Of a stretch of 14,287 nucleotides of DNA, positions 1 through 3,303 are shown piece by piece. Each line of letters opens with the position of its first letter. Within the stretch, counting starts at the first letter, position 1. The notes under the pieces are model-generated. The model made no database searches and had not been told where the DNA came from. It worked only from the letters and a program-made list of their open reading frames with translations. Source of the stretch: Halothiobacillus neapolitanus (GTDB lineage Bacteria; Pseudomonadota; Gammaproteobacteria; Halothiobacillales; Halothiobacillaceae); contig DYMR01000004.1 of NCBI GenBank assembly GCA_020721485.1, positions 11,442-25,728 on the forward strand, written 5' to 3'. A program made the position numbers and the translations under genes.

Positions 1-11
1 TGGCATGATCC

Positions 12-27
12 TGAGCAACGGCGCTCA
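12..27 (+). promoter_or_regulatory. Candidate ANTAR-target hexaloop hairpin (antiterminator) in the nrt leader
   Basis: Bases 12-16 (tgagc) pair perfectly with 23-27 (gctca) and leave a six-base loop, aacggc (17-22). A is at loop position 1 and G at position 4. Known ANTAR-domain antiterminators (NasR, NasT, EutV, AmiR) bind tandem hairpins with hexaloops conserved at exactly A1 and G4, and the second hairpin overlaps the 5' arm of a terminator. Here bases 21-27 are shared with the terminator arm 21-33, so the two folds exclude each other. The expected first hairpin would lie before base 1 and cannot be seen. A five-pair stem is short enough to arise by chance, so this rests on geometry plus the nitrate-operon context. 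Confidence 0.55.
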
Positions 28-59
28 CAAAACAGGAAGTTTTGTGGGCGCTTTTTTTT
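21..59 (+). terminator. Intrinsic terminator, probably the nrt operon attenuator
   Basis: Bases 21-33 pair with 39-51 in a 13-pair stem (one G-U pair, t25 with g47), with a five-base loop aggaa. Eight consecutive T follow at 52-59. This is a textbook rho-independent terminator for plus-strand transcription. It ends 30 bases before the nrtA ATG, which leaves too little room for a separate complete promoter. I therefore read it as a leader attenuator for the operon. The alternative is that it only ends a gene upstream of the window. It also rules out the TTG at 42 as the nrtA start, since that codon lies within the stem. Confidence 0.9.
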
Positions 60-89
60 GGCATTTGTGAAACGAATGGGGCACCCAAG

Positions 90-2476: not shown

Positions 2477-2505
2477 GAACGAGCCATTTAGAGTTGAGAA
2501 CAGCG

Positions 2506-3303
2506 ATGAATCCGAAATATCTACAAATCAGTCAGATTTCGATTGAGTTTCCTACCCCCAAAGGGCCGTTTAAAGCATTGGATGGTGTGGATTTAACCAT
2601 CGCGCAAGGGGAGTTTGTTTCTCTGATTGGCCACTCGGGTTGCGGTAAATCCACCGTGCTGAATATCGTGGCGGGTTTGTATCAAGCCACGGCGGGTGGG
2701 GTGATTTTGGAAGGCCGCGAGGTGAAAGAACCGGGGCCTGAGCGGGCGGTGGTGTTTCAAAACCATTCGTTATTGCCTTGGTTGACGGCCTATGAAAATG
2801 TCGAGTTGGCCGTCAAAGAGGTGTTCCGGGGGCAGAAATCGCGCGGTGAAATGCGCGATTGGATTGAGCACAACCTGACCCTGGTGCACATGGATCATGC
2901 GATGCATAAGCGCCCGGATGAAATTTCCGGCGGCATGAAGCAGCGGGTTGGCATTGCCCGTGCGCTGGCGATGCAGCCCAAAGTGATGCTGATGGATGAG
3001 CCGTTCGGTGCGCTGGATGCGCTCACCCGGGCGCACCTGCAAGATTCGCTGATGGCCATTCAGGCGGAACTGAACAACACCGTGATTATGATTACGCACG
3101 ATGTGGATGAGGCGGTGTTGTTGTCCGATCGCATCGTGATGATGACCAACGGCCCAGCCGCGACGGTGGGTGAAATTCTGCCGATTCAGTTGCCGCGCCC
3201 GCGTGAGCGTTTGGCACTGGCGGATGATCCGGAATACAACCATTATCGGCATGCGGTTCTGAAGTTTTTATATGAAAAACAACGGCATCCGACGGGGCAT
3301 TGA
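2506..3303 (+). CDS. nrtD: Nitrate ABC transporter ATP-binding protein (NrtD type)
   Basis: Cytoplasmic ATPase that powers the importer. The 265-residue product has a complete ATP-binding cassette: Walker A GHSGCGKST (42-50), Q-loop Gln85, signature ISGGMKQR (140-147), Walker B VMLMDEP (160-166), D-loop GALD (168-171) and switch His198. It lacks the NrtA-like C-terminal domain that cyanobacterial NrtC carries, so it matches NrtD. The family also resembles the sulfonate and taurine ATPases SsuB and TauB; the neighbours decide in favour of nitrate. I start it at ATG 2506, preceded by a purine-rich stretch (gagttgagaa, 2491-2500); the upstream TTG at 2494 lies in that stretch. The gene lies 29 bases after nrtB. 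It ends 17 bases from the convergent lpxB stop, with no terminator visible between them. Confidence 0.86.
   Translation: MNPKYLQISQISIEFPTPKGPFKALDGVDLTIAQGEFVSLIGHSGCGKSTVLNIVAGLYQATAGGVILEGREVKEPGPERAVVFQNHSLLPWLTAYENVELAVKEVFRGQKSRGEMRDWIEHNLTLVHMDHAMHKRPDEISGGMKQRVGIARALAMQPKVMLMDEPFGALDALTRAHLQDSLMAIQAELNNTVIMITHDVDEAVLLSDRIVMMTNGPAATVGEILPIQLPRPRERLALADDPEYNHYRHAVLKFLYEKQRHPTGH

Follow-up and report, generated by a model that had tools for sequence, protein, structure and literature searches.

What occupies the short interval between an assembly gap and the start of a predicted nitrate-uptake operon, and how might it control that operon? An earlier note on this DNA had proposed an ANTAR-type antitermination leader before nrtABD. 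We analyzed the whole stretch of 14,287 nucleotides (the window; G000:C197:11442-25728), which belongs to an assembly of 1.8 Mb in 217 contigs that is 81% complete (G000, here the own genome); two of its nearest named relatives are Halothiobacillus MAGs. Our reading, to which we give a probability of roughly 0.9, is that bases 1 to 59 form the 3′ portion of an attenuator leader that responds to an ANTAR protein, in this case NasR, and controls nrtABD. This bears out the proposal, with support from two-hairpin leaders in relatives, a gene for a NIT-ANTAR protein in the own genome, and a further leader before nirB.

The nrtABD operon and its upstream gap

Three forward-strand genes follow the leader: one for an nrtA-like substrate-binding protein with a Tat signal (90 to 1541; NMT1_2 and TAT_signal matches), one for an nrtB-like permease (1538 to 2476; best match TIGR01183, below the cut-off of that model), and one for an nrtD-like ATPase (2494 to 3303; TIGR01184, above its cut-off). 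An NCBIfam search of the nrtA-like protein gave no match at 1e-10; we take the gene to be nrtA from homology to annotated CmpA/NrtA neighbors of nasR elsewhere. A protein search of the own genome for a NarK-like gene gave none at 1e-10.

Directly before base 1 the assembly has 100 N (L002 3343-3442), the customary filler for a scaffold gap whose length is not known. Because this gap covers their expected place, the first hairpin (P1) and the promoter of the window's leader are unreadable. The earlier note put P1 just before base 1, a position that would fall within the gap. From the upstream side, a same-strand open frame of more than 750 codons extends into the gap; it has no Pfam match.

Two mutually exclusive structures precede nrtA

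Re-reading and folding of the sequence confirmed the structures described in the earlier note, namely a 5-pair hairpin with an A1/G4 loop that excludes a 13-pair terminator followed by eight T. The second ANTAR-type hairpin (P2; 12 to 27, forward strand) pairs TGAGC (12 to 16) with GCTCA (23 to 27) over five pairs, and its hexaloop, AACGGC (17 to 22), has A at position 1, G at position 4, and a C:G closing pair. Bases 1 to 11, between the gap and P2, are probably the linker, a role suggested by the relatives described below. The intrinsic terminator, on the same strand, has a stem of 13 pairs, one of them G-T (21 to 33 with 39 to 51, around a loop at 34 to 38), which a terminator scan lengthens to 14 pairs (20 to 52); eight T at 52 to 59 follow the stem directly, and 30 bases separate the end of this run from the start of the nrtA-like gene. 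Since bases 20/21 to 27 are common to P2 and the terminator, the two folds are mutually exclusive.

Folding of bases 1 to 62 gave −23.5 kcal/mol, compared with a shuffled mean of −14.7 (z, −3.2; 1 of 200 shuffles was as good or better). Taken alone, hairpin 12 to 27 has an energy of −5.6 kcal/mol and terminator 20 to 52 one of −21.5 kcal/mol, and the remnant of the terminator once P2 forms (28 to 52) is left with −3.4 kcal/mol. Terminator-likeness by itself is not rare in the window, where 19 such sites were found and 19.8 were expected; the 20 to 52 terminator has the most pairs among the 19. That P2 and the terminator would not have come together by chance is best evidenced by their conservation in relatives.

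The window has no Rfam match at gathering cut-offs. Two Rfam matches in 801 bases around the leader (E up to 10), one of which, ctRNA_p42d, falls on the terminator itself, lay far below the gathering scores of their families and were set down to chance.

Loops are conserved and stems covary in relatives' nrtA leaders

Searching 57 genomes with the nrtA protein at E ≤ 1e-60 gave 26 matches, either nrtA or NasS-like, spread over 21 genomes, one of which is the own genome. We found first and second hexaloop hairpins in 20 nrtA leaders of relatives, the hairpins having been picked for these features. The P1 loop was of the A1/G4 kind in 18 of the 20, the two others (L006 and L007) having GATGAA. 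The P2 loop was A1/G4 in all 20, a count raised by the picking of stems for pairing, which likewise raises the 98.8% of stem cells that are paired in alignment A2 (17 leaders). Covariation, together with controls in which the alignment was slid, is the better measure: across 17 of the 20 leaders (16 distinct) the score was 0.708, compared with 0.249 ± 0.034 for shuffles, none of 500 reaching it, and slid versions scored at most 0.160. An overlapping terminator was present by one fixed rule in 19 of 20 leaders (the exception being L018), and a sigma54-type site lay 45 bases or less upstream of P1 in 16 of 20 (12 of 40,000 shuffles). The comparison of orthologous leaders that the earlier note had called for thus turned out in its favor, with conserved loops and covarying stems.

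Alignment A2 and a model, R1, were made from 17 of the 20 leaders; left out were L006 and L007, whose P1 was misaligned by MAFFT, and L015, which has a 38-base linker. We kept L033 (two A1/G4 hairpins, no T-run seen), L034, and L035 out of the count of 20, outside which L032 and L036 to L038 also stand; L030 and L031 were taken with L007 and L006, respectively, and counted once. No leader was found at L025 to L029, which are NasS-like paralogues.

R1, built without the window, matched bases 5 to 26 at model positions 24 to 45 (20.1 bits, E 0.0054 in 168 kb); searched against the whole own genome, the same place scored 16.2 bits (E 0.54). This match is consistent with an ANTAR leader but weak, because only half of the motif is there. 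Of the 25 genomes that have an ANTAR gene, 18 had an R1 match at E ≤ 1e-3, as did 1 of the 32 that lack such a gene, which makes 19 of the 57. Seventeen of these 19 genomes had supplied leaders to R1, so independent support comes down to six further places at E ≤ 1e-3 (two in G008 and one each in G014, G020, G025, and G038), and an ANTAR gene is present in every one of these genomes. ANTAR-gene genomes lacking a match at this threshold were G000, G001, G002, G004, G010, G036, and G045. In G017, which has a match but no ANTAR gene, 52 bases separate the match from the end of a contig, and in G011 and G015, of the same genus as G017, nasR stands just upstream of the leader. We rejected an own-genome match at C96:3461 (18.8 bits), which is inside a long open frame, and matches in G001 C37, G005 C5, G008 C3, and G008 C7, which lie in or across open frames and have no P2 with terminator.

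The own genome encodes a NasR-type regulator

The earlier note had looked to a NasT- or NasR-like protein as inducer. Its expectation of an ANTAR gene held: the 81% complete genome has a single ANTAR match (G000:C122:10184-10339), within a 423-residue protein that carries an N-terminal NIT domain (PF08376, 34 to 277, 148.5 bits) and a C-terminal ANTAR domain (PF03861, 362 to 413, 73 bits), the arrangement that marks NasR. Residues 3 to 416 align with Klebsiella NasR 4akk (E 2.6e-40). Matched by eye, the stretch KELAGQERA, around pocket residues named in PMC7496416, is kept in that alignment, and the residues that contact G4 in EutV (E160, Y164, and R142; PMC8934654) appear to be kept as well. 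The gene lies on a different contig from the nrt operon. Of the two kinds of inducer proposed, the NasR-like one was therefore found; a NasT-type ANTAR protein was not found in this 81% complete genome, and the sole NasS match was nrtA itself, at 38%, so that the pairing of NasT-type protein and NasS that defines the other system is missing from the sequence at hand. Because the sole ANTAR gene is of the NIT-ANTAR type, NasR, not NasT, is likely the regulator of the window's leader.

Regulators differ within the genus. Of ten of its genomes that we compared, five (G000, G001, G002, G004, and G009) have an ANTAR protein of 423 to 427 residues, which we class as the NasR type from Pfam domains run on the G000 protein alone and, for the other four, from alignment to it over 413 to 420 residues at 43 to 46%. 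In the ANTAR helix, LR reads MQ in those four proteins (L058, L059, L060, and L062, of G001, G002, G004, and G009), and the window's organism keeps LR. Three genomes (G005, G007, and G008) have ANTAR proteins of 192 to 206 residues, and a response-regulator model matched residues 5 to 130 of the G008 protein; in the remaining two of the ten (G003 and G006) no ANTAR gene was found. NasS-like proteins at 65 to 67% to that of G008 occur, within the genus, in G005 and G007 only. In a one-protein UvrD tree, built without G013, G028, and G036, G000 is the first branch among the ten (support 92/93 for the node that unites the other nine), and the regulator types are mixed, the NasR-type G004 adjoining the NasT-type G008 in a group with support 94/93. 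This mixing suggests that the regulator type changed more than once in the genus or was lost in places.

We think it very unlikely that the leader, though of the ANTAR type, answers instead to a NasS-NasT pair missed by the incomplete assembly. Such a pair could have escaped an assembly that is 81% complete, and the short ANTAR proteins and NasS-like proteins of G005, G007, and G008 accompany leaders of the same design; yet the one ANTAR match of the own genome is NIT-ANTAR, its one NasS match is nrtA at 38%, and the two types were not found together in any of the ten genomes compared.

A second leader of the kind precedes nirB

The own genome has another such leader (L105, G000:C26, about 270 to 425) upstream of nirB and nirD, which are followed by the beginning of a nitrate-reductase-like gene. 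In order, it comprises a sigma54-type site (TGGCACGAGGGTTGCT), a hairpin, P2 (AAGAC-AAAGGC-GTCTT), and a terminator; the first hairpin is long and has a three-base loop, which departs from the A1/G4 rule. A loose P2 pattern occurs at 38 places in the own genome, compared with 23 for a reversed control, and 2 of the 31 places inspected among the 38 have an overlapping terminator, these being the window's and the nirB leader's. The own genome has a sigma54 gene.

It is scarcely credible that the two structures simply close an upstream transcription unit, with a coincidental hexaloop and an nrtA promoter after base 59: the long same-strand open frame that enters the gap and the ordinariness of terminator-like sites in the window would suit such an end, but both loop and terminator also precede nrtA in relatives whose upstream genes differ, a similar loop before a terminator recurs at nirB, and a sequence scan found no sigma70-type site at 60 to 89, with sigma54-type sites upstream of the hairpins in the 16 relatives counted above.

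Within the genus, the first hairpin varies with regulator type

To read P1 without presupposing it, we used a scan for P2 plus terminator that is blind to P1, over 21 stretches (225 kb in total). These were taken from the surroundings of nrtA or ANTAR genes, apart from L105, L106, and L108 to L111, which were selected by model matches. For the genus, the scan, which recovered the G009 nirB hairpin, gave 10 leaders from genomes of the NasR type and 7 from those of the NasT type. Under a strict rule for P1 (A1/G4 loop, at least four pairs, C:G closing pair), P1 was present in 7 of 7 leaders of NasT-type genomes. Of the 9 readable leaders from NasR-type genomes, 1 had it (that of G009 nrtA), or 2 with the closing-pair rule dropped; the tenth NasR-type leader is the window's, whose P1 place is inside the 100-N gap. 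The difference by regulator type has a Fisher p of 0.0014, a figure that ignores shared ancestry, and the strict rule was satisfied in 0 to 1.5% of shuffled regions. Among nirB leaders of NasR-type genomes, 0 of 5 had a strict P1.

According to PMC7496416, NasR exists as a stable dimer that its NIT domain keeps inactive, and response-regulator types dimerize on signal. This could be why some NasR types have lost the P1 loop: tentatively, and with less than even odds, NasR-type leaders of the genus, the window's organism included, might work with a single hexaloop hairpin, having lost the loop of the recruiting hairpin P1 and kept P2, since a permanent NasR dimer would not depend on RNA to join its two subunits, with NasT-type leaders still needing, and so keeping, both. 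Just as open is the possibility that the P1 loop was lost by drift, with weakened regulation of these operons.

Outside the genus, we scanned 23 loci with NasR-like genes, 9 of which had leaders (10 in total). The P1 loop was A1/G4 in 7 of the 10 (Klebsiella, Pantoea, Erwinia, Ideonella, the first Niveispirillum leader, G361, and G133), with a U:G closing pair in Ideonella and a three-pair stem in G133, and lacked A1/G4 in 3 (Pseudoalteromonas, G079, and the second Niveispirillum leader). In G011 and G015, both NasR type, the P1 loop is AACGTC on a stem with one mismatch; among the 20 nrtA leaders described above, every one that comes from a NasT-type genome has a P1 loop of the A1/G4 kind. 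The mixed pattern suggests that loss of the P1 loop marks some NasR lineages but not all.

Comparison with known ANTAR leader systems

As set out in PMC3369931, an ANTAR leader has a P2 stem of at least three pairs with an A1/G4 hexaloop, a like hairpin (P1) upstream, and a terminator overlapping P2; it belongs to a genome with an ANTAR gene, and it binds the protein and lets transcription read through in response to a signal. The window has such a P2 (five pairs, AACGGC) and terminator (20 to 59), and its genome has an ANTAR gene. The two-hairpin definition may not hold here, given that strict P1 is missing in 8 of 9 readable NasR-type leaders of the genus.

A close parallel is the NasR-controlled Klebsiella nasF leader (PMC7496416), with which the own genome shares a NIT-ANTAR regulator, an A1/G4 hairpin exclusive with a terminator, and an nrtA-type first gene. 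The Klebsiella record runs from nasR through a sigma54-type site, P1 (CGAACC-AATGGC-GGTTCG), P2 (loop AAAGGC), and the terminator to the nrtA-type gene; a sigma54-type site upstream is thus common to it and to relatives of the window, and Ntr and sigma54 are described as controlling the Klebsiella operon (PMC5424462). Unlike Klebsiella, G000 has nasR on another contig, the place of P1 falls in the gap, and the P1 loop of its nirB leader has three bases.

The nas leaders governed by NasS-NasT in Paracoccus and Azotobacter (PMC3795266 and PMC5424462) are of the same design as the window's; their regulator type is used by three genomes of the genus, but neither gene was found in G000. The eut leaders of Enterococcus, under EutV, also have A1/G4 hexaloops and a second hairpin exclusive with a terminator (PMC3369931 and PMC8934654). 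According to PMC8934654, P1 is required for EutV action in vivo, and lengthening the linker by 20 bases abolishes antitermination in vitro. By comparison, P1 is often noncanonical in NasR-type genomes, and P1-P2 linkers in the relatives' nrtA leaders run from 6 to 38 bases, even though 20 added bases put an end to EutV antitermination in that work. In literature on Halothiobacillus with ANTAR or nitrate assimilation, no account of this leader was among the matches listed; the predicted-leader tables of PMC3369931 lay outside that search.

Discussion

What was observed is that the window can form either of two exclusive structures, that relatives conserve them, and that the own genome has one gene of the NasR type and one for sigma54. 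Most likely the window's leader is an ordinary example of the known ANTAR leader kind, and from these elements we propose the following course of events. Transcription would start at a sigma54-type promoter that, judging from the relatives, probably lies inside the upstream gap. Without nitrate, the terminator at 20 to 59 would end most transcripts before nrtA. With nitrate, the NIT-ANTAR protein would free its ANTAR domains, which would bind the hexaloop hairpin at 12 to 27; bound P2 would occupy the 5′ arm of the terminator, so that polymerase would read on into nrtABD. A first hairpin may also take part in the own genome.

With NasR- and NasT-type regulators acting on similarly built leaders in a single genus, the pattern in P1 would offer a natural way to test the need for both hairpins, the requirement reported for EutV; among the leaders examined in the genus, P1 drift was seen in NasR-type leaders only. 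For the organism, the leaders would tie two operons, nrt and nirBD with its nitrate-reductase-like gene, to one regulator, and would place nitrate uptake in a sulfur-oxidizing genus under attenuation of the NasR or NasT type.
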